The notes below the pieces were generated by a model, which saw only the letters and a list, made by a program, of their open reading frames with translations, had not been told where the DNA came from and made no database searches. A stretch of DNA of 64,000 nt from Formosa sp. Hel1_31_208 (GTDB taxonomy: Bacteria > Bacteroidota > Bacteroidia > Flavobacteriales > Flavobacteriaceae), in assembly GCF_900104785.1 (NCBI RefSeq), contig NZ_LT629733.1, positions 1,954,501 to 2,018,500 of the forward strand. Reading direction: 5' to 3'. The translations under genes were made by a program, and so were the position numbers. The first letter of the stretch is position 1. Each line of letters opens with the position of its first letter. Of the stretch, positions 37,940 to 51,795 are shown in pieces.

Positions 37940-39874
37940 TTATTCTTTTAAAATATAGAAGTAAGAGCGTCTGTTCAACTGATGCTCTTCTTTGGAGCAT
38001 TTTACACCATTAGAACATTTGTTAAGTAACTGTGACTCTCCATACCCTATAGCGCTTTCTATGCGTTCTGGAGCAATACCTCTGGATAGAATATAATCTT
38101 TGGTTGATTTTGCTCTTCTATCTGATAATTTCATATTGTAACTGTCACGTCCACGGCTATCTGTATGCGCTTCAATTTTAATTACCATACTTGGGTGAGC
38201 TCTCATCACATCAACAATGTTCTCTAATTCGTATTGTGCATCTGTTCTGATGTTCCATTTGTCAAAATCAAAGAAAATAGGATTAATAACTATTTGATTG
38301 TCTTTAATTAAGGGTTCTAAATTAAGATCTACTTCAGTAGTTTTCTCATTTTCATTATCGGTGACCACTTTCTGCTGATCATCTTTATAGTCTTTTTTAC
38401 TACCAATTACAGTGTAATTTGTATTACAATCTGCCGAAAATTCATAATTTCCGTTGTCATCGGTTTCAACTTCTGCAATTACTTTTCCAACCTCATTGAT
38501 AAGTTGTACGGTCGAACCAGATAATACTTGACTCGTATTTAAGTCTCTTACAACACCTTCAATTTTTTGAAGGCAAATAGAAGCGTCAAAGCTGTAGATG
38601 TCATCACTACCTTGACCATCAGGGCGATTAGAAGAGAAATAACCTGAATTATCATGCTCCGAGTCTGAAGTATTTCGGAAATAAGCAAAATCATCAAAGC
38701 CACTATTATAGGGCGCACCTAGGTTTTCAGGCATTGCATTTTCATCCTTTAAAATATCAGATTTAAAAATATCTAAAAAGCCTAAGTTTAAATGTCCGTC
38801 AGAAGAGAAGTAAAATACACCATCTGCTGCAACAAAAGGGAACATTTCTCTTCCTTCAGTGTTGATTTTGTCTCCAAGATTTCTGGGTTCTGAGTAGTTG
38901 TCTCCGTCTATATCAACGACATAAATATCTGTATTTCCAATACCTCCTTCGCGATCTGAAACAAAATATAATTGTTTATTGTCGGGACTTAATGCAGGGT
39001 GACCTGTTGAAAAGATATCATCGTTGAAAGGTAACTCAACAACATTAGTCCATTGTTCACCTACAAATGTTGCTTTATACAATTTGAGGTGTGTGGTACC
39101 TTTTTTATCGTACTTTAATTTTTTATTATTCTTACTCACATTATCTCTTGTGAAGTACATGGTTTTACCATCTTTAGTGATCGCAACCGAAGCTTCATGA
39201 AAGTCTGTGTTTACTTTTTCAGCAGAAATAAAACCAACTGAACCATAAGCCGTGTCGTTTGTTGCATCATCAGTAACTTCAACTTGATAGATGTCTAGAA
39301 ATGGTTCTTGGTTCCAATTGTATAATTTTTTTTCATCAGTATTTCTTGACGATGCAAAGTATAATTGTCCGTCATGAATGTAAGTTCCAAAATCTGAATA
39401 CTTTGAATTAAAAGGCAAATTTTTAAGCTTTACAACTTGATTCTTTTCACTACTTGATAATTCGTCATATTTTGCTATGTTTTCAGGGTTATAACTCTTA
39501 TTTCTAGAGTCATTGTTCTGAATCGCAGTGAATTTTTTCATCCATAAATGAGCATCTTCAAATTTGCTTTGACTTCTTAAGGACTGAATATGCTTGTAGA
39601 TATATTCTGGGTGAAGCTCTTGCTCACCATACTTATCTAAAGCTAAATCATACCAATATGCCGCTTTCTCAGATTTAGAATTATTGTAATAACAATCTCC
39701 TAATCGTGTTAGAACATGTAGGCTTGTGTCTCCTTTTTTAAGAACTTCTTCGTAAAGTTCTGTGGCTTTAATATACCCAAAATTGCTAAAAAACTTATCA
39801 GCAAGCTTTTCTTGAGCAACCATAAATGTGCTACTAAACACAAATAATAAGATTAAAAACTTTGATTTCATCAT
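37940..39874 (-). CDS. TPR-PD40-carboxypeptidase-regulatory-OmpA protein (PorE-like)
   Basis: A 644-residue exported protein. In order: signal peptide (MMKSKFLILLFVFSSTFMVA then Q); TPR-like helices (about residues 25-130, YIKATELYEEVLKKGD, AAYWYDLALDKYG); PD40 beta-propeller blades (about 155-430, YFASSRNTDEKK, LSPDNKQLYFVSDREGG); a carboxypeptidase-regulatory domain (about 440-510, GVVRDLNTSQVLSGSTVQLI); and OmpA C-terminal domain (about 530-644, FFDFDKWNIRTDA, KIEAHTDSRG, LSDRRAKSTKDYIL). PorE of the T9SS has this order and links the machine to peptidoglycan. It is the last gene of the operon. Start 39874 avoids overlap with the barrel gene. Confidence 0.88.
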   Translation of the reverse strand: MMKSKFLILLFVFSSTFMVAQEKLADKFFSNFGYIKATELYEEVLKKGDTSLHVLTRLGDCYYNNSKSEKAAYWYDLALDKYGEQELHPEYIYKHIQSLRSQSKFEDAHLWMKKFTAIQNNDSRNKSYNPENIAKYDELSSSEKNQVVKLKNLPFNSKYSDFGTYIHDGQLYFASSRNTDEKKLYNWNQEPFLDIYQVEVTDDATNDTAYGSVGFISAEKVNTDFHEASVAITKDGKTMYFTRDNVSKNNKKLKYDKKGTTHLKLYKATFVGEQWTNVVELPFNDDIFSTGHPALSPDNKQLYFVSDREGGIGNTDIYVVDIDGDNYSEPRNLGDKINTEGREMFPFVAADGVFYFSSDGHLNLGFLDIFKSDILKDENAMPENLGAPYNSGFDDFAYFRNTSDSEHDNSGYFSSNRPDGQGSDDIYSFDASICLQKIEGVVRDLNTSQVLSGSTVQLINEVGKVIAEVETDDNGNYEFSADCNTNYTVIGSKKDYKDDQQKVVTDNENEKTTEVDLNLEPLIKDNQIVINPIFFDFDKWNIRTDAQYELENIVDVMRAHPSMVIKIEAHTDSRGRDSYNMKLSDRRAKSTKDYILSRGIAPERIESAIGYGESQLLNKCSNGVKCSKEEHQLNRRSYFYILKE

Positions 39875-39884
39875 GATTTGTTTT

Positions 39885-40802
39885 TTAGAAGTATCTAGGG
39901 GATTTAATACGTTTACTTTTAAATATTTCAAACATTAGTAAGACTTCATGAGTACCACTCGTATATGGTCTTAAATCGGAAATAGGATATTCATAGGCAT
40001 AGCCTATTCGTAACTGTTTTGAAACTTGAAAGTCTGCTATGCCACTGAAGGCAGCTGCTCGTTCGTTAATTCGGTATCCAGCACCAACCCAAAATTTCTC
40101 ATAGAATAAAAAGTTTGCAGTCATATCAAATGACAATGGTGCGCCATTAGTGGCTTTTAATAAAGCTGCTGGTTTGAACATTGTATTCTCACTGAGTTTA
40201 AAAACATAACCTCCAGTGAAATAATAGCTTATTCGTTCTAAAGATTGAAATTCTGCATCACCTGTATAATCGGTGTTTAGAAGTCTTGGAGCAGAAAGAC
40301 CTATATACCATTTATTACTATGCCAGTATATACCAGTTCCAATATTAGGCTTCCATCGATCTTCAAAGCCGAAAATCACGGGGTCATTGGCTTGTGATTG
40401 TTGGAAATCAGCATCTAAACTATAACTTGTGAATCCTGCTTTTAAACCGAAAGCAAGCTTGCTATTCTCACCAGTAGGTATGGTGTATGAAAAATCACCA
40501 TACAAATAAGAGAAGTTCTGATAACCGAGTTCATCATTTACAAAAGATAACCCTAGACCAACTCTCTCATTTCTCATTGGGGCATGTATAGATAACGTTT
40601 GGGTTTGTGGACCTCCTTCAAGACCAACCCATTGGCTTCTATGTAAACCAACAACACTTAGCGTCTCTCTACTTCCTGCATAAGCGGGATTTATAGAAAT
40701 AGTATTGTACATATACTGCGTAAACTGCGGAAGTTGCTGTGCTACTCCCATCCAGCTACTGAACAGTATAAATGCTATTATATTAAACTTGACTAATTTC
40801 AT
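39885..40802 (-). CDS. PorP/SprF-family outer-membrane protein
   Basis: A 305-residue beta-barrel with signal peptide ending GVAQ and the family opening QLPQFTQYMYNTISINPAYAGSR (positions 22-44). Then come VVGLHRSQWVGLEGGPQTQTLS and barrel strands up to HEVLLMFEIF. In Flavobacterium johnsoniae SprF is needed to export the adhesin SprB, and each T9SS type B substrate tends to have its own PorP/SprF partner. Here it lies 12 bp after the giant adhesin gene, so it is very probably the specific partner for that protein. It precedes the PorE-like gene by 10 bp. Confidence 0.93.
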   Translation of the reverse strand: MKLVKFNIIAFILFSSWMGVAQQLPQFTQYMYNTISINPAYAGSRETLSVVGLHRSQWVGLEGGPQTQTLSIHAPMRNERVGLGLSFVNDELGYQNFSYLYGDFSYTIPTGENSKLAFGLKAGFTSYSLDADFQQSQANDPVIFGFEDRWKPNIGTGIYWHSNKWYIGLSAPRLLNTDYTGDAEFQSLERISYYFTGGYVFKLSENTMFKPAALLKATNGAPLSFDMTANFLFYEKFWVGAGYRINERAAAFSGIADFQVSKQLRIGYAYEYPISDLRPYTSGTHEVLLMFEIFKSKRIKSPRYF

Positions 40803-40814
40803 ATAGGTTAAGAT

Positions 40815-43800
40815 TTATTTTGTTGAAACGTAGATTGGTCCTGTAATAGGCTTTAGTCCACTATTCTTAATATTTATAACGTAATAATATGTTCCTGTTG
40901 GCACATAATCTGAACGTCCAATAGAGGCATTCGAAGCTGTACCATTCCAATCATTTTGATAATTGAAGTTTTCATATATTTTAGCACCCCAACGGTTAAA
41001 GATTTGTACTTCAAATACGAATCCACACTCTTCAACACCCGTGATGGTAAAGAATTCATTAATACCATCAAAGTTCACTGTGACAGCTTTAGAGATAATT
41101 AGATCATCTTCTCCGCAAGGTAAAACGACACAATCATCATTAATGTTAATTATGACAGTTACACTTCCTGGGCATTCACCACCGTAAGTATAAGTAAACT
41201 CATAATCACCTAATTGATCTTCTGTAAAATTATCATCTGTATCTAATAATGATGACGGGTTAAAGAAGCTTCCATTAATAGTAGCATCACCAGAGGTTAC
41301 TGTCCAAATACCATCTACATCGTAATCTCCAAGCAATAGATCGAATAGATCAAAATCAAAATCTTCAGTAATACAAAGTGTAGCGTCATCAGTTGGTATA
41401 TCACTTTCTACGGAAACGATAATGGTTTGAGTAAAAACGGATTCATTTCCACATTCATCTGAAACAAACCAATCTCTAATAATTTCATAGTCTGTAGCTG
41501 TTCCATCTGCAGTTGACGTTTCATTGAAAACAACAGTGATATTAGAAGAACAAGCATCTTCAAATACTAATTCTGGAACCTCAGGAATCTCGCTACATAC
41601 AACATTGATTACATCTTCTAAATCACCTACAAGAGCAGGTGGTGTATTGTCTTCAATAGTAATAGTTTGAACAAATGAAGTTGCGTTATCACAATCGTCA
41701 GTTAAGGTCCATACTCGCGTAATTAAAGCTTCACCTGGACAATCACCATCAGTAACTGTATCCACAAAAGTAGCTTCAAGACCAGTTGAGCAGTTATCCG
41801 CTTCATCAGTAACATCACCAGTTAAGGTAAGGTCAGAAGGATCTTGATCACACTCAATAGTGATATCAGCAGGTACCGTAAAGGTAGGTGGTGTTGTATC
41901 TTCAACAGTAATGGTTTGAACAAGTGTTGTTGTATTATCACAATCGTCAGTTAAAGACCAAGTTCTAGTAATTACAGATTCATTAGCACAAGCGCCATCA
42001 GCCACTGTATCTACAAAAGTAGCTTCAAGACCAGTTGAGCAGTTATCTGCTTCATCAGTAACATCACCAGTTAAGGTAAGGTCAGAAGGATCTTGATCAC
42101 ACTCAATAGTGATATCAGCAGGTACCGTAAAGGTAGGTGGTGTTGTATCTTCAACAGTAATGGTTTGAACAAGTGTTGTTGTATTATCACAATCGTCAGT
42201 TAAAGACCAAGTTCTAGTAATTACAGATTCATTAGCACAAGCACCATCAGCCACTGTATCTACAAAAGTAGCTTCAAGACCAGTTGAGCAGTTATCTGCT
42301 TCATCAGTAACATCACCAGTTAAGGTAAGGTCAGAAGGATCTTGATCACACTCAATAGTTACATCAGCAGGTACCGTAAAGGTAGGTGGTGTTGTATCTT
42401 CAACAGTAATGGTTTGAACAAGTGTTGTTGTATTATCACAATCGTCAGTTAAAGACCAAGTTCTAGTAATTACAGATTCATTAGCACAAGCGCCATCAGC
42501 CACTGTATCTACAAAAGTAGCTTCAAGACCAGTTGAGCAGTTATCTACTTCATCAGTAACATCACCAGTTAAGGTAAGGTCAGAAGGATCTTGATCACAC
42601 TCAATAGTGATATCAGCAGGTACCGTAAAGGTAGGCGGTGTTGTATCTTCAACAGTAATGGTTTGAACAAGTGTTGTTGTATTATCACAATCGTCAGTTA
42701 AAGACCAAGTTCTAGTAATTACAGATTCATTAGCACAAGCGCCATCAGCCACTGTGTCTACAAAAGTAGCTTCAAGACCAGTTGAGCAGTTATCTGCTTC
42801 ATCAGTAACATCACCAGTTAAGGTAAGGTCAGAAGGATCTTGATCACACTCAATAGTGATATCAGCAGGAACCGTAAAGGTAGGTGGTGTTGTATCTTCA
42901 ACAGTAATGGTTTGAACAAGTGTTGTTGTATTATCACAATCGTCAGTTAAAGACCAAGTTCTAGTAATTACAGATTCATTAGCACAAGCGCCATCAGCCA
43001 CTGTATCTACAAAAGTAGCTTCAAGACCAGTTGAGCAGTTATCTGCTTCATCAGTAACATCACCAGTTAAGGTAAGGTCAGAAGGATCTTGATCACACTC
43101 AATAGTGATATCAGCAGGTACCGTAAAGGTAGGTGGTGTTGTATCTTCAACAGTAATGGTTTGAACAAGTGTTGTTGTATTATCACAATCGTCAGTTAAA
43201 GACCAAGTTCTAGTAATTACAGATTCATTAGCACAAGCGCCATCAGCCACTGTATCTACAAAAGTAGCTTCAAGACCAGTTGAGCAGTTATCTGCTTCAT
43301 CAGTAACATCACCAGTTAAGGTAAGGTCAGAAGGATCTTGATCACACTCAATAGTGATATCAGCAGGTACCGTAAAGGTAGGCGGTGTTGTATCTTCAAC
43401 AGTAATGGTTTGAACAAGTGTTGTTGTATTATCACAATCGTCAGTTAAAGACCAAGTTCTAGTAATTACAGATTCATTAGCACAAGCACCATCAGCCACT
43501 GTATCTACAAAAGTAGCTTCAAGACCAGTTGAGCAGTTATCTGCTTCATCAGTAACATCACCAGTTAAGGTAAGGTCAGAAGGATCTTGATCACACTCAA
43601 TAGTGATATCAGCAGGTACCGTAAAGGTAGGCGGTGTTGTATCTTCAATAGTAATGGTTTGAACAAGTGTTGTTGTATTATCACAATCGTCAGTTAAAGA
43701 CCAAGTTCTAGTAATTACAGATTCATTAGCACAAGCGCCATCAGCCACTGTATCTACAAAAGTAGCTTCAAGACCAGTTGAGCAGTTATCTGCTTCATCA

Positions 43801-46800
43801 GTAACATCACCAGTTAAGGTAAGGTCAGAAGGATCTTGATCACACTCAATAGTGATATCAGCAGGAACCGTAAAGGTAGGTGGTGTTGTATCTTCAACAG
43901 TAATGGTTTGAACAAGTGTTGTTGTATTATCACAATCGTCAGTTAAAGACCAAGTTCTAGTAATTACAGATTCATTAGCACAAGCACCATCAGCCACTGT
44001 ATCTACAAAAGTAGCTTCAAGTGTACTAACAGAACAGTTATCTGCTTCATCAGTAACATCACCAGTTAAGGTAAGGTCAGAAGGATCTTGATCACACTCA
44101 ATAGTTACATCAGCAGGTACCGTAAAGGTAGGCGGTGTTGTATCTTCTATAATAAGCGTTGTACTAAGTGTAGCAAAGTTACCACAGTCATCAGTAATTG
44201 TGTAAACCACAGCAATTGAACCAGCTTGTCCACAAGAAGGCACTAGATTTCCAAAGTTATAATTAGAGGTTACGGTAATACTTATGTCGTCAGAACAATT
44301 TTCAAGAGAAGTGATATTAGCTGTATTCCAAATATTAGCTAATTGTTCGTTATTGTCACCTTCACATTCAATTGTTTCATCAGTTAAAGTACAGTTTGAT
44401 AAATCAGGAGTTGTACCATCGTCGAATGTTAGAGTGGCGGATATAGTTGAACTATTACCGCAATCGTCAGTAACGGTATACGTAACAGTTATATTTCCAC
44501 AAGGTCCACATATCGTATTCAGATTATTAAAATCGTAATCAGAAGTTACTTGACCTGTTAAATCAGTATCACAATTATCAGTAGCGCAAGCTTCTAATGT
44601 AGCAATGTTAGCAGCATTCCAAGCATCCGCCAATGATTCATTATCAGTATCAGAACATTCTAGAACTGTATTTTCTAATGTACAGTTTGAAAGGTCTGGC
44701 GGTGTTGTATCTTCAACAGTAATGGTTTGAACAAGTGTTGTTGTATTATCACAATCGTCAGTTAAAGACCAAGTTCTAGTAATTACAGATTCATTAGCAC
44801 AAGCGCCATCAGCCACTGTGTCTACAAAAGTAGCTTCAAGACCAGTTGAGCAGTTATCTACTTCATCAGTAACATCACCAGTTAAGGTAAGGTCAGAAGG
44901 ATCTTGATCACACTCAATAGTGATATCAGCAGGAACCGTAAAGGTAGGCGGTGTTGTGTCTTCAATAGTAATGGTTTGAACAAGTGTTGTTGTATTATCA
45001 CAATCGTCAGTTAAAGTCCAAGTTCTAGTAATTACAGATTCATTAGCACAAGCACCATCAGCCACTGTATCTACAAAAGTAGCTTCAATACCAGTTGAGC
45101 AGTTATCTGCTTCATCAGTAACATCACCAGTTAAGGTAAGGTCAGAAGGATCTTGATCACACTCAATAGTGATATCAGCAGGTACCGTAAAGGTAGGCGG
45201 TGTTGTATCTTCAACAGTAATGGTTTGAACAAGTGTTGTTGTATTATCACAATCGTCAGTTAAAGACCAAGTTCTAGTAATTACAGATTCATTAGCACAA
45301 GCGCCATCAGCCACTGTATCTACAAAAGTAGCTTCAAGACCAGTTGAGCAGTTATCTGCTTCATCAGTAACATCACCAGTTAAGGTAAGGTCAGAAGGAT
45401 CTTGATCACACTCAATAGTGATATCAGCAGGTACCGTAAAGGTAGGCGGTGTTGTATCTTCAACAGTAATGGTTTGAACAAGTGTTGTTGTATTATCACA
45501 ATCGTCAGTTAAAGACCAAGTTCTAGTAATTACAGATTCATTAGCACAAGCACCATCAGCCACTGTATCTACAAAAGTAGCTTCAAGTGTACTAACAGAA
45601 CAGTTATCTGCTTCATCAGTAACATCACCAGTTAAGGTAAGGTCAGAAGGATCTTGATCACACTCAATAGTTACATCAGCAGGTACCGTAAAGGTAGGCG
45701 GTGTTGTATCTTCTATAATAAGCGTTGTACTAAGTGTAGCAAAGTTACCACAGTCATCAGTAATTGTGTAAACCACAGCAATTGAACCAGCTTGTCCACA
45801 AGAAGGCACTAGATTTCCAAAGTTATAATTAGAGGTTACGGTAATACTTATGTCGTCAGAACAATTTTCAAGAGAAGTGATATTAGCTGTATTCCAAATA
45901 TTAGCTAATTGTTCGTTATTGTCACCTTCACATTCAATTGTTTCATCAGTTAAAGTACAGTTTGATAAATCAGGAGTTGTACCATCGTCGAATGTTAGAG
46001 TGGCGGATATAGTTGAACTATTACCGCAATCGTCAGTAACGGTATACGTAACAGTTATATTTCCACAAGGTCCACATATCGTATTCAGATTATTAAAATC
46101 GTAATCAGAAGTTACTTGACCTGTTAAATCAGTATCACAATTATCAGTAGCGCAAGCTTCTAATGTAGCAATGTTAGCAGCATTCCAAGCATCCGCCAAT
46201 GATTCATTATCAGTATCAGAACATTCTAGAACTGTATTTTCTAATGTACAGTTTGAAAGGTCTGGCGGTGTTGTATCTTCAACAGTAATGGTTTGAACAA
46301 GTGTTGTTGTATTATCACAATCGTCAGTTAAAGACCAAGTTCTAGTAATTACAGATTCATTAGCACAAGCGCCATCAGCCACTGTGTCTACAAAAGTAGC
46401 TTCAAGACCAGTTGAGCAGTTATCTACTTCATCAGTAACATCACCAGTTAAGGTAAGGTCAGAAGGATCTTGATCACACTCAATAGTGATATCAGCAGGA
46501 ACCGTAAAGGTAGGCGGTGTTGTGTCTTCAATAGTAATGGTTTGAACAAGTGTTGTTGTATTATCACAATCGTCAGTTAAAGTCCAAGTTCTAGTAATTA
46601 CAGATTCATTAGCACAAGCACCATCAGCCACTGTATCTACAAAAGTAGCTTCAATACCAGTTGAGCAGTTATCTGCTTCATCAGTAACATCACCAGTTAA
46701 GGTAAGGTCAGAAGGATCTTGATCACACTCAATAGTGATATCAGCAGGTACCGTAAAGGTAGGCGGTGTTGTATCTTCAACAGTAATGGTTTGAACAAGT

Positions 46801-49800
46801 GTTGTTGTATTATCACAATCGTCAGTTAAAGACCAAGTTCTAGTAATTACAGATTCATTAGCACAAGCGCCATCAGCCACTGTGTCTACAAAAGTAGCTT
46901 CAAGACCAGTTGAGCAGTTATCTGCTTCATCAGTAACATCACCAGTTAAGGTAAGGTCAGAAGGATCTTGATCACACTCAATAGTGATATCAGCAGGAAC
47001 CGTAAAGGTAGGTGGTGTTGTATCTTCAACAGTAATGGTTTGAACAAGTGTTGTTGTATTATCACAATCGTCAGTTAAAGACCAAGTTCTAGTAATTACA
47101 GATTCATTAGCACAAGCACCATCAGCCACTGTATCTACAAAAGTAGCTTCAAGACCAGTTGAGCAGTTATCTGCTTCATCAGTAACATCACCAGTTAAGG
47201 TAAGGTCAGAAGGATCTTGATCACACTCAATAGTGATATCAGCAGGTACCGTAAAGGTAGGTGGTGTTGTATCTTCAACAGTAATGGTTTGAACAAGTGT
47301 TGTTGTATTATCACAATCGTCAGTTAAAGACCAAGTTCTAGTAATTACAGATTCATTAGCACAAGCGCCATCAGCCACTGTATCTACAAAAGTAGCTTCA
47401 AGACCAGTTGAGCAGTTATCTGCTTCATCAGTAACATCACCAGTTAAGGTAAGGTCAGAAGGATCTTGATCACACTCAATAGTGATATCAGCAGGTACCG
47501 TAAAGGTAGGCGGTGTTGTATCTTCAACAGTAATGGTTTGAACAAGTGTTGTTGTATTATCACAATCGTCAGTTAAAGACCAAGTTCTAGTAATTACAGA
47601 TTCATTAGCACAAGCACCATCAGCCACTGTATCTACAAAAGTAGCTTCAAGACCAGTTGAGCAGTTATCTGCTTCATCAGTAACATCACCAGTTAAGGTA
47701 AGGTCAGAAGGATCTTGATCACACTCAATAGTGATATCAGCAGGTACCGTAAAGGTAGGCGGTGTTGTATCTTCAATAGTAATGGTTTGAACAAGTGTTG
47801 TTGTATTATCACAATCATCAGTTAAAGTCCAAGTTCTAGTAATTACAGATTCATTAGCACAAGCACCATCAGCCACTGTATCTACAAAAGTAGCTTCAAG
47901 ACCAGTTGAGCAGTTATCTGCTTCATCAGTAACATCACCAGTTAAGGTAAGGTCAGAAGGATCTTGATCACACTCAATAGTGATATCAGCAGGAACCGTA
48001 AAGGTAGGCGGTGTTGTATCTTCAACAGTAATGGTTTGAACAAGTGTTGTTGTATTATCACAATCGTCAGTTAAAGACCAAGTTCTAGTAATTACAGATT
48101 CATTAGCACAAGCGCCATCAGCCACTGTATCTACAAAAGTAGCTTCAAGACCAGTTGAGCAGTTATCTGCTTCATCAGTAACATCACCAGTTAAGGTAAG
48201 GTCAGAAGGATCTTGATCACACTCTATAGTGATATCAGCAGGTACCGTAAAGGTAGGTGGTGTTGCATCAACGACTGTTATGATTTGATCTATAGAGACA
48301 GAATTACCACACTCGTCAGTAGCTGTCCAAGTTCTTGTAATTGTTTGAGTATTTCCACAACCAGGCACTGAAGTATCTGCATAAGTTACTGTAGCATTAC
48401 CACAAGTGTCTGAAGCAGTAGCACTTCCTGTTTCAGCTGGATCAGCACTCTCTGTGCATTCTATAGTGGTATCTGCAGGAACACTAAGGGTTGGTTCAGT
48501 GGTATCAACCACAGTTATGATTTGATTTTCAGAGACAGAATTACCACACTCGTCAGTAGCTGTCCAAGTTCTGGTATATATATGTGTAAAACCGCATTCA
48601 TCTGTCAATGAATCTGTATATTTAATATCGACAACACCACAATTGTCACTTCCAGTCGCATTACCAGTAGCTGTAGGATTAATTGGGTCAGTACATTCTA
48701 CAGTAACATCTGCAGGTATGGTTAAAGAAGGAGGAGTGGTGTCAACTACAGTTATGATTTGATCTTCTGAAACCGAATTGTCACAATCGTCAGTCGCCGT
48801 CCACGTTCTAGTAATAATTTGAGTATTTCCACAACCAGGAACTGAAGCATCTGCATAAGTTACTGTAACATTACCACAGGTATCAGCAGCAGTAGCACTT
48901 CCAGTATCAGCTGGATCAGTACTCTCTGCACATTCTATAGTGACATCTGCAGGAACGACAAGTGTTGGATTTACAGTATCTACTACTGTGATAGTTTGAT
49001 CATCAGATTCAAAGTTACCGCAGTCATCAGTAGCTGTCCATGTTCTAATTATAATTACGGCATTACCGCAAACAACCGTTGTATTATCGGTGTACGTTAT
49101 TGTGACATTACCACACGCTTCTGTTGCCGTTGCTTGACCAGTATTTGATGGATCTGTACTTTCAGTACATTCGATATCAATCTTTGAAGGAATCGTCAAT
49201 TTTGGATCAGTGGTATCAACTACTGTTATAATTTGATCTTCAGAGACAGTATTACCACAATCATCAGTGGCTGTCCATGTTCTAGTAATAGTTTCTGTAT
49301 TTCCACAACCAGGAACCGAAGTATCAGCATAAGTCACTCTAGTATTACCACAGTTGTCAGTAGCAGTAGCACTGCCAGTATCAGCTGGATCGGTACTTTC
49401 CGTGCATTCTACTGTCGTATCAGCAGGAATAGAAATAGTTGGTGGTGTATTATCAACAACCGTAATCACCTGAATATATGCATCAATAGTGGTATTACAG
49501 GCATCAGTAAACGACCAAGTATTCGTATAAGTCCCGTTAGTAGGACAACTAGGATCTGGCACAAATGGACCGGATGTTTTAGTTAAAGTGAAATCACATT
49601 TATCGGTATCCGGTTCTAAATTCTGGGCGTTTTCTAGTGCGATAGAATCTGAACAATCTACAGTTGTATCTAATTCTCCTGGAGCATTACTCCATGAAAC
49701 TATAGGTTGATTAACTTCAACTATTAATGGAAGTTTGTTACCTATATTACAATTGTCAAGAGCAGCTGAGCTTAATGAATTTTGATTATTTGGATTTTGT

Positions 49801-51311
49801 ATTCCATTATAGTTTGCGGTAAACTGCAGGTCAAAATTTAAGTCACAATCGTCTTCTAAGAAATAACATTCATCTTGAATAACAACATCAAAATCTACAT
49901 TTAATGCTGGATCACCCACATCGGTGTAACCGTCTTCAATAAAAAATTCCAGCAAATTGGTTGTAGGATTAAAATTATAAGTGACACCCGTAGGCGTGTT
50001 AACCATATTAACTGCAGCTATTTGAGGCGGTAATGTTGCCGAAATAGATAAATTTACAGCACTATCATTTCCTTTATTAACAATATTAAAGTTAAATCCT
50101 AATGAACTACCAGCATTTGTAGGTGTTGAACCAGTATCCATTATAATTTCAATTGGATCTAAATCTGGGGCCCACACGTCAACACAAAGACCGACAAGAA
50201 ACAAGCCGTATGTCTCCTGATTTGATGTCAGTCTTAGGGTTGCAGATGTTTGATTATTAGCGATAATATTGTTTCCAGTATTGTCTAAATTAAATACAGC
50301 TGCATCAAAACCAAGTGTATTTTGACTGGCTGGATTCCGATCTAAAAAATCAGAATTCCCTATAGTTATTCTACTATTAAAGAAATTGTTGCTTGTTCGT
50401 TGTGGAGCCGTGATACTAACAAAGTTGTTATTTGTGTCTCTGATTTGTAATTGATCACCACTTAAGTCTCTATCACCTTCAAGAGACCCGATAATAACAT
50501 TTGTATTAACATCTCCTGTAGGAACTGTTTGAAATCCTCCAAACGTAATATCAAAATTATTGATAGCACTTGTCACATTGGCATAACCATCAAAAAGACT
50601 AATGTTTTTAGCTGGTAATTTCGGACTTTCGTATACAAATACAATTTGCCATCCTCCTGAGGTTCCAATATTTCCACCACCATGCCCTATAACGCTTCCA
50701 AGTTTTGCTTCAACATTTGCAACTTGGTAAGTTCCATAAGGATCAACGAGTCCAGTGACTTGGTCTGTAATATCTTTAAAACAGATATAAGGATCATTAT
50801 TGATATGAAAATTTCTACCTCTATAAATAACATCATCCGCTGTAAGTGTTGTATACTGGGTTTGTCCAGGTAACATCAACATAATATCATTATAATTCCA
50901 ATTCGGTTGATTCTCAGAAGTTGGATCCGTAGTGGGTTCTCTATCTGCTGCAGCCCAATATAAGTAGGCTTTATACATCGAAAGACAGGTAAGTTGTGGT
51001 TCAGGATTTGAAAAATTAGCACTACTCGAGTTAAAAGTGTCGTCAATATTGTCATTATTAATATCAACGAGACCGTCAATGTCAACATAGACATTATTAT
51101 TAAATGAGTGGTTACCTGATCCTCCGTTATAGTTATCGGTAGCGGTTCTTGATAACATATTGTTAGCGACCATAGTAACATCACCATTAACAGTCTCATT
51201 AAATCGAGGCGTAAAGGCGTCTAATACTTGAGCATTAACAAAACTTCCTACCAAGATCATTGTAATCAGGCAGGCGTTTCTAAGTGTTTTATGATTAATA
51301 GCAGTTTTCAT
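40815..51311 (-). CDS. Giant HYR-repeat adhesin with T9SS type B sorting domain
   Basis: A 3498-residue secreted protein. Order: signal peptide ending FVNAQ; N-terminal beta region (about 25-560, with [18 protein letters not shown] and [11 protein letters not shown]); five diverged HYR-like repeats of about 78 residues (about 620-1015, [21 protein letters not shown]); and 22 near-identical repeats of 83 residues (about 1016-3220, [16 protein letters not shown] to TITVEDTT), each with four Cys, probably two disulfides. Two copies of a pair of different repeats ([18 protein letters not shown]...) interrupt the array at about 1684-1870 and 2204-2394. A last Ig-like part and the gliding-motility-associated C-terminal domain follow (about 3400-3498, [28 protein letters not shown]). 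It should be exported by T9SS with its PorP/SprF partner just downstream. Function as adhesin is inferred from architecture. Confidence 0.92.
41640..48250 (-). repeat. Array of 22 near-identical 249-bp coding repeats
   Basis: Inside the adhesin gene a 249-bp unit recurs 22 times in phase with the reading frame. For example, the stretch GTAAAGGTAGG followed by TGGTGTTG recurs 249 bp apart at 41879 and 42128. Most units differ by only a few bases at the same sites, mostly silent third positions. One unit type carries an extra 6 bp (SVSTLE instead of STGLE). Two 570-bp insertions of a different sequence break the array at about 44130-44698 and 45696-46264. Identity at the DNA level points to recent amplification or gene conversion. 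Confidence 0.95.
43885..46882 (-). repeat. Recent 1566-bp tandem duplication inside the adhesin gene
   Basis: The segment 43885-45316 recurs at 45451-46882, a shift of 1566 bp (522 codons). I found no mismatch by eye over about 1.43 kb, including the unique insertion, while the flanking repeats on both sides do differ (for example an A/T change near 43866 and 45432). The duplicated unit equals four HYR repeats plus the PPDLSNC pair. The event keeps the frame and is therefore tolerated. Confidence 0.9.
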
Positions 51312-51345: not shown

Positions 51346-51795
51346 CTAATTAAAATTTTGTGGGTCAGGGACTAAAGATTTTATTATAAGTGAATTGCTG
51401 ATGTTATTATTGTTTCCAGATAGGACTTTAACTTCAGTACAATTCCATTTACCTAATGGGGTAGTTGCGTCACGAGATATTTTAACAAAAAAATCTAATG
51501 AACTATTCGCTCCAACAGTACCAGATTCTATGGTTTGTGTTTTTTGTGAATTAAGAACTTGTCTTTTTAGATGTATTTGCTTGTTTTGAGCAATACCATT
51601 ACAGACTTGATCACTAGTAACAATAGTAAAGTCTTTGGGGCTATTAGATATATTTGTGATTTCAATCAAATACAAGTGCTCCTGAGCTGTAATTGGCAAA
51701 TCTGACGATTTTTTAATTTTGAGCTCTAGTGACTGTTGTCCGTAAGAACATAGTGTTGCTAGACAAACTAGCATTACCAAAGTAATTCTTTTCAT
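51346..51795 (-). CDS. Small exported protein encoded upstream of the giant adhesin
   Basis: A 149-residue protein with signal peptide MKRITLVMLVCLATLCSYG then QQ. The mature part is beta-rich, with LYLIEITNISNSPKDFTIVTS, a Cys in DQVCNGIAQ and another in KWNCTEVKV, and ends DPQNFN. The pattern TNISNSPKDFTI resembles a FN3/CARDB-like domain, which binds or caps other beta domains. It lies 34 bp upstream of the adhesin gene on the same strand, so it is likely in the same operon. Function unknown; a chaperone or accessory surface role is only a guess. Confidence 0.75.
   Translation of the reverse strand: MKRITLVMLVCLATLCSYGQQSLELKIKKSSDLPITAQEHLYLIEITNISNSPKDFTIVTSDQVCNGIAQNKQIHLKRQVLNSQKTQTIESGTVGANSSLDFFVKISRDATTPLGKWNCTEVKVLSGNNNNISNSLIIKSLVPDPQNFN

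Follow-up and report, generated by a model that had tools for sequence, protein, structure and literature searches.

The adhesin gene and its modules

The window analysed here is a stretch of 64,000 nucleotides from the genome of Formosa sp. Hel1_31_208, and our subject is a giant adhesin gene on its minus strand, together with the genes that surround it (Table 1). The open reading frame of the adhesin contains 22 HYR_4C units in frame, each of 249 bp or 83 codons and called B units in the sequel, which run from position 48254 to 41637; an extra codon in units 9 and 13 brings each of these to 84 codons. The family HYR_4C (PF23237) scores 458.2 bits on the protein, against a Pfam cut-off of 27, and matches 23 stretches of it.

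The original prediction described the B units as 22 near-identical copies in an unbroken array. The number of units is correct, but the last one has 30 differences from the consensus, and the array is interrupted: two identical inserts of 567 bp, each with two non-B domains, divide the units into groups of 8, 4 and 10. Because of these inserts, Tandem Repeats Finder splits the B units into three arrays, of 10.1, 4.1 and 8.1 copies. The inserted domains are of a second type, C, and the C modules of this genome consist of these two pairs, within the B array. A third type, A, lies nearer the N-terminus. Its five copies had been taken for older versions of the B repeat; they belong in fact to a separate conserved module of 79 amino acids (aa), since A modules of this length sit ahead of the other modules in relatives too.

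At the C-terminus, CHU_C scores above its Pfam cut-off, and TIGR04131 reaches 38.7 for a cut-off of 35 (32.9 when the whole protein is scanned). Judged by this sorting domain, the adhesin is a surface protein of the type IX secretion system (T9SS), as had been predicted, and is of type B.

Table 1. Features of the adhesin locus; positions are counted from the first letter of the window.
Feature	Position	Strand	Basis
PorE-like protein (beta-propeller, carboxypeptidase-regulatory and OmpA domains), putative start	37940..39931	minus	Open reading frame listing
PorP/SprF-family carrier without cysteine	39885..40802	minus	Pfam, sequence
Adhesin gene, 3498 aa, single open reading frame	40815..51311	minus	Open reading frame listing
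C-terminal T9SS sorting domain (CHU_C / type B)	40827..41099	minus	
B units 13-22	41637..44129	minus	
Unit 22, second half diverged	41637-41885	minus	
Exact 1436-bp direct repeat, second copy	43882..45317	minus	
Insert 2, same sequence as insert 1, 567 bp	44130..44696	minus	
B units 9-12	44697..45695	minus	
Exact 1436-bp direct repeat, first copy	45448..46883	minus	
Insert 1, two C-type domains, 567 bp	45696..46262	minus	
B units 1-8	46263..48254	minus	
Five 79-aa A modules, diverged (pS 0.535)	48255..49439	minus	
Unique N-terminal domain, aa 28-538, used as orthologue probe	49698..51230	minus	
149-aa protein upstream of the adhesin	51346..51795	minus	

Recent amplification of the B units

Divergence was computed on units 1 to 21, the extra codons of units 9 and 13 being excluded. 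These units comprise 14 distinct sequences: 20 of the 249 columns are variable, two units differ on average in 4.9 positions, and 10 of the 210 pairs are identical. Silent sites, which the original prediction held to be almost unchanged, show 3.08 differences per pair over 61.1 sites, and replacement sites 1.85 differences over 187.9 sites. The corresponding Nei-Gojobori proportions over the 210 pairs are pS = 0.0505 for silent and pN = 0.0098 for replacement differences. In unit 22, a single difference from the consensus falls in the first 122 bp and 29 fall in the last 127 bp, so that the junction between near-identical and diverged sequence sits inside this unit. The diverged half was considered as an old anchor shared across species and rejected, the values being 0.67 to the last units of others and 0.68 to inner units.

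Between species, the picture is different. The B units of this genome compared with those of 25 gene sets from relatives give mean values of pS from 0.49 to 0.75; the N-terminal domain of the adhesin, compared with nine species, gives 0.645 to 0.741, and the C-terminal region, compared with nine gene sets, 0.470 to 0.629. Other species supply 13 gene sets in which four or more B units are present, and within these pS ranges from 0.233, in the single-contig genome G002, to 0.599. In a tree of 146 B units, all 22 from the present genome fall into one clade (support 0.994), and units also cluster by species in G013 (16 of 16), G020 (14 of 15) and G002 (10 of 11).

A recent amplification or homogenisation of the B units is thus well supported by the array value of about 0.05, set against 0.49-0.75 between species, and by the single clade, which agrees with the original prediction. 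What tells against a general rule is that the B units of G004 (1 of 8) and G006 (2 of 7) do not cluster by species: homogenisation is strongest in the present genome and is not universal. The near uniformity of silent sites within the array could also be read as selection on DNA, RNA or codons. This explanation is scarcely credible, because the same silent sites are not conserved across species, where the module differs at 0.49-0.75 of them, and the B units group by genome.

Growth of the array

The longest exact repeat of the array with itself spans 1436 bp, with a shift of 1566 bp, and holds a whole insert (Table 1). A second pair, located within units 2-7 and units 14-19, is nearly exact: its 1141 bp, at a shift of 4128 bp, consist of 698 and 442 bp around a single mismatch. 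Neighbouring units, on the other hand, are no more similar than average, with a mean of 5.7 differences versus 4.9 for all pairs, and single-unit slippage was rejected as the main mode of growth. Units four apart have 3.35 differences on average, the lowest value among shifts 1 to 14, and shift 15, with 6 pairs only, has 2.83.

The two long duplications and the lack of any extra similarity between neighbours fit a growth by duplication of multi-unit blocks rather than by single-unit slippage. The order of the units, taken by itself, is weak evidence for such blocks and tempers this reading: in 132 of 2000 shuffled orders, a run of four units was at least as similar to another as units 6-9 are to units 10-13.

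An old array of fixed unit number, homogenised by gene conversion, would also yield units that are mosaics of a few shared variants, and a junction within unit 22, both of which are observed. We consider this scenario unlikely: the exact 1436-bp duplication carries an entire insert in both of its copies, and module numbers vary widely across species. Conversion may have acted in addition to amplification. The stalk is modular, and one of its modules, B, has reached 22 copies through a recent multiplication in which blocks of several units were duplicated. Such blocks could be produced by unequal homologous recombination, the units being nearly identical and in frame, and unit number could thereby change without a frameshift, so that the stalk would grow or shrink. 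Variation of unit number within the species is likely.

Comparison with orthologues

We now turn to the other genomes of the genus, one per species. The N-terminal domain has an orthologue, at 65-80% identity, in 14 of the 22. In 10 of these 14, the contig breaks off inside the repeats. The orthologue of G022, the nearest relative, has a frame of 1508 aa and a gap of 9 N in its array; with its array interrupted in this way, it was not used as an example of a short array. In the three other orthologues the sequence is unbroken, and the open frame measures 3789, 4084 and 3729 aa.

Wherever the layout can be traced, relatives have the A modules first, then C, then B, with the C-terminal domain after them, while the amplified module differs by species: 27 C in single-contig G002, 10 A in G007, and 22 B in the present genome (24 by hidden Markov model count, which includes two weak matches outside the array). 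Mixed orders are found in G013 and G020, for example AACCB repeated. Both the number of units and the choice of the amplified module thus differ between species. In 21 of the 23 genomes of the genus, all but G003 and G021, a paralogue of the adhesin whose N-terminus is 36-40% similar shows an open frame of 2707-2761 aa.

There is always the possibility of an assembly artefact, in which the assembler would have expanded the array wrongly or doubled the 1566-bp block. The unit count rests on one assembly of one genome of the species, which weakens our reading, and arrays of this type do break assemblies, as the 10 truncated orthologues and the one with a gap illustrate. However, the genome is one contig, the frame is open across 10.5 kb, units 1-21 contain 14 different variants, and arrays are present in the orthologues of other single-contig genomes, such as G002 and G006. 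We regard an artefact as quite unlikely. More generally, caution is needed with draft genomes, which cut or collapse such repeat genes.

Two observations can be added. In single-contig G006 a different module has been amplified, at L143:10150-11770, as 474-bp dimers of a 237-bp unit, in 3.4 copies with a 99% match. The 149-aa protein encoded upstream of the adhesin has a homologue at the same place in 8 of 17 loci of relatives; it is probably secreted, and an NCBIfam scan gave no match for it.

Predicted fold of the stalk

An AlphaFold2 model that covers insert 1 and the two units after it, 9 and 10, built on an alignment of four sequences, has a predicted local distance difference test score (pLDDT) of 79 and a predicted template modelling score (pTM) of 0.52. 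It is rich in strands, with one long helix in each insert domain. Among PDB structures, Foldseek gives the best matches to an RTX adhesin (6xi1), in its tandem extender repeats, and to cadherin ectodomains, that is, to elongated tandem beta-sandwiches. These similarities carry limited weight for a rod-like stalk: the template modelling score over the model is at most 0.34 among the 50 matches listed, so that the rod geometry is tentative, and a sequence search of the PDB gave cadherins only, with E about 0.06.

Probable anchoring to the cell wall

The adhesin is followed directly downstream by a gene for a PorP/SprF-family carrier, and then by a PorE-like gene. In SprF, a Cys-Xaa-Cys (CXC) motif of the tail is described as forming a disulfide with GldK of the gliding track (PMC12635249). 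The carrier of the window has no cysteine, hence no CXC tail. Its counterparts in 21 relatives all end with a KSKRIKSPRYF tail and none with CXC; a single cysteine is found elsewhere in one of the 21. CXC tails do exist on two of the six carriers of this genome, one of which adjoins the paralogue of constant length, and the carriers of this paralogue have a CXC tail in 14 of the 14 genomes examined.

Pairs of PorP and PorE-like proteins have been postulated to anchor nonmobile type B proteins (PMC9143113), and Fjoh_3952, a substrate of Flavobacterium johnsoniae encoded in an operon of matching order, is reported to form static foci only (PMC12618676). Given the cysteine-free carrier, the PorE-like neighbour and the static foci of Fjoh_3952, the adhesin of the window is most likely static and anchored to the wall. 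Two results go the other way: the PorE-like protein scores 337.7 with the NCBIfam PorE model, below the cut-off of 600, and a Pfam scan of it gave no TPR domain. The type B sorting domain and the PorP/SprF-family carrier would also suit an adhesin carried along the gliding track, as SprB is. With a carrier that has no cysteine and hence no CXC tail, a PorE-like gene next to it, and CXC tails on two other carriers of the same genome, we hold such a gliding adhesin to be very unlikely.

It is thus natural to conjecture, with a probability that we put at about 0.72, that the product of the gene is a T9SS adhesin, static and anchored to the cell wall, and that its stalk is of the periscope type and evolvable in length; its mechanism and reach would be as follows. 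By analogy with relatives, the T9SS would export the adhesin, the sorting domain would remain bound to the PorP-like barrel encoded downstream, and the PorE-like protein would link this barrel to peptidoglycan. This would keep the N-terminal domain away from the cell, at a distance fixed by the number of repeats. If one stalk domain spans about 4 nm, the 31 domains of the stalk would give a reach of roughly 120-140 nm.

Repeat arrays and anchoring classes

The relation between arrays and mode of anchoring was surveyed in 21 single-contig genomes from 18 genera: the present genome, eight other members of the family, and 12 more, the lowest-numbered of the single-contig genomes with a strong CXC-type match (E < 1e-100). 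Four single-contig genomes with weak matches only (G119, G147, G160 and G173) were passed over. These three groups contain 6, 47 and 86 carriers of family PF11751, or 139, of which 113 were examined; the 26 excluded carriers, all from the group of 12, comprise 14 with long frames, 1 fragment and 11 others. A carrier is classified as CXC if this motif occurs in its last 60 residues, and as PorE-linked if a downstream protein matches the PorE-like protein of the window with more than 100 bits by phmmer. An array is scored when the DNA repeats itself directly and exactly over 60 bp or more. Among the first 107 carriers, 13 lack an adjacent upstream gene of 300 aa (9 CXC, 2 PorE-linked and 2 with neither mark).

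Exact repeats are found in 33 of 57 PorE-linked genes, in 0 of 18 CXC genes, in 1 of 18 with neither mark, and in the only one with both. When six further CXC loci are added and adhesins of at least 1400 aa are retained, the counts are 30 of 46 for PorE-linked genes versus 0 of 23 for CXC genes; at 2000 aa or more, they are 22 of 26 versus 0 of 23 (17 + 6), some of the giant genes being incomplete in the stretch examined. Lowering the threshold to 24 or 30 bp yields a repeat in 1 of the 23 CXC genes: their longest exact repeat is at most 34 bp, with a median of 17, versus a median of 188 bp for PorE-linked genes. At the protein level, repeated domains occur in both classes (45 of 46 PorE-linked, 17 of 17 CXC), with a median best identity of 74% in the first and 40% in the second. 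Fifteen genomes contain both classes: the PorE-linked side has an array in 14 of them and the CXC side in none, G003 having neither.

These counts suggest that stalks whose length is easily changed are found chiefly on adhesins fixed to the wall and not on those that move the cell. A broader statement, to which we would give even odds, is that the T9SS type B adhesins of flavobacteria form two mechanical classes: static ones, on PorP-PorE anchors to peptidoglycan, with near-identical repeats open to recombination and hence to changes of length, and gliding ones, no less modular, with domains of about 40% identity and a locked length. Two facts count against a strict rule. On the tree of carriers, PorE-linked and CXC proteins are separated by a single split, which amounts to one independent contrast and carries no significance, and because of this split kinship alone could explain the difference; Fisher values for it ignore kinship and are not evidence of its strength. 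The carrier with both marks serves an adhesin of 1300 aa (L277) that has an array. At least 8 changes of array state can be counted within the PorE side of the tree. In L279, a CXC case of 1259 aa, the sorting domain resembles that of PorE-linked proteins.

Two side observations concern PorE-linked loci. In G047, an adhesin of at least 5296 aa (L196) has an exact direct repeat of 2871 bp. In G101, two loci near opposite ends of the contig (L246 and L247) have identical carriers, but their substrates, of 1950 and 1955 aa, differ in the tail; the two look like recent duplicates of the carrier locus.

Other arrays in the genome

Proteins of type B are not the only ones with arrays. The present genome has another HYR array of near-identical units (L055, C1:1626455-1634251, minus strand), in a zinc carboxypeptidase of family M14 whose T9SS tail is of type A; this array has 31 units of 225 bp, in 12 distinct sequences with a mean of 2.3 differences, and three inserts of 92 aa. 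Opposite this array runs an open frame of 1703 aa (L055:6304-11412), probably a by-product of the repeats, which could be misannotated as a gene. Elsewhere in the genome, an open reading frame of 3392 aa contains a 321-bp repeat in 3.9 copies with a 99% match (L057:368-1633).

Relation to known systems

Stalks of the periscope type (PMC8201768) and variation of repeat number in Flavobacterium psychrophilum (PMC8400371) are known already. The present analysis would place stalks of evolvable length in the T9SS world and tie them to the static PorP-PorE class of anchors, the gliding-type adhesins examined having no exact repeats. If the association holds, it would offer a rule, readable from the sequence, to tell those surface proteins of flavobacteria that are expected to differ in length from strain to strain from those that are not. 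It also touches on the idea, cited in PMC8201768, that neighbouring domains of a chain need to diverge so as not to misfold: the gliding class conforms to it, and many static adhesins do not. A literature search with a limited set of terms found, among the titles and abstract openings listed, no paper joining repeat arrays with PorE-type or static PorP-PorE anchoring.

SprB and SprF share with the window a type B sorting domain, a PorP/SprF-family carrier and many repeated domains (PMC9143113, PMC12635249); as far as these sources describe it, SprF is bonded to GldK through a CXC tail and lacks a PorE-like neighbour, whereas the carrier of the window has no cysteine and has such a neighbour. 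The Fjoh_3952-3951-3950 operon of Flavobacterium johnsoniae offers the same order of genes, with a substrate, a PorP/SprF-like shuttle and a PorE homologue; the available text of PMC12618676 mentions no repeat array in it, and the adhesin of the window has one. In Flavobacterium psychrophilum, a gliding-motility-associated repeat protein is reported with 35, 55, 69, 87 and 88 repeats across isolates (PMC8400371).

The word stem "bacteroid" has no occurrence in the main texts of PMC8201768 and PMC9704523, which deal with Periscope Proteins such as SasG, Rib, Sgo_0707 and CdrA. Like the adhesin of the window, these expose at the surface a stalk made of tandem domains of high identity, encoded in near-identical stretches of DNA, and recombination has been proposed to alter their length (PMC8201768, PMC9704523). 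The high identity of the repeat DNA in the window adhesin agrees with this description, and the folding of its domains is predicted by the model. The difference lies in the attachment: the Periscope Proteins described there use a sortase or an autotransporter barrel, and the window adhesin would use the T9SS and a PorP-PorE-like anchor.

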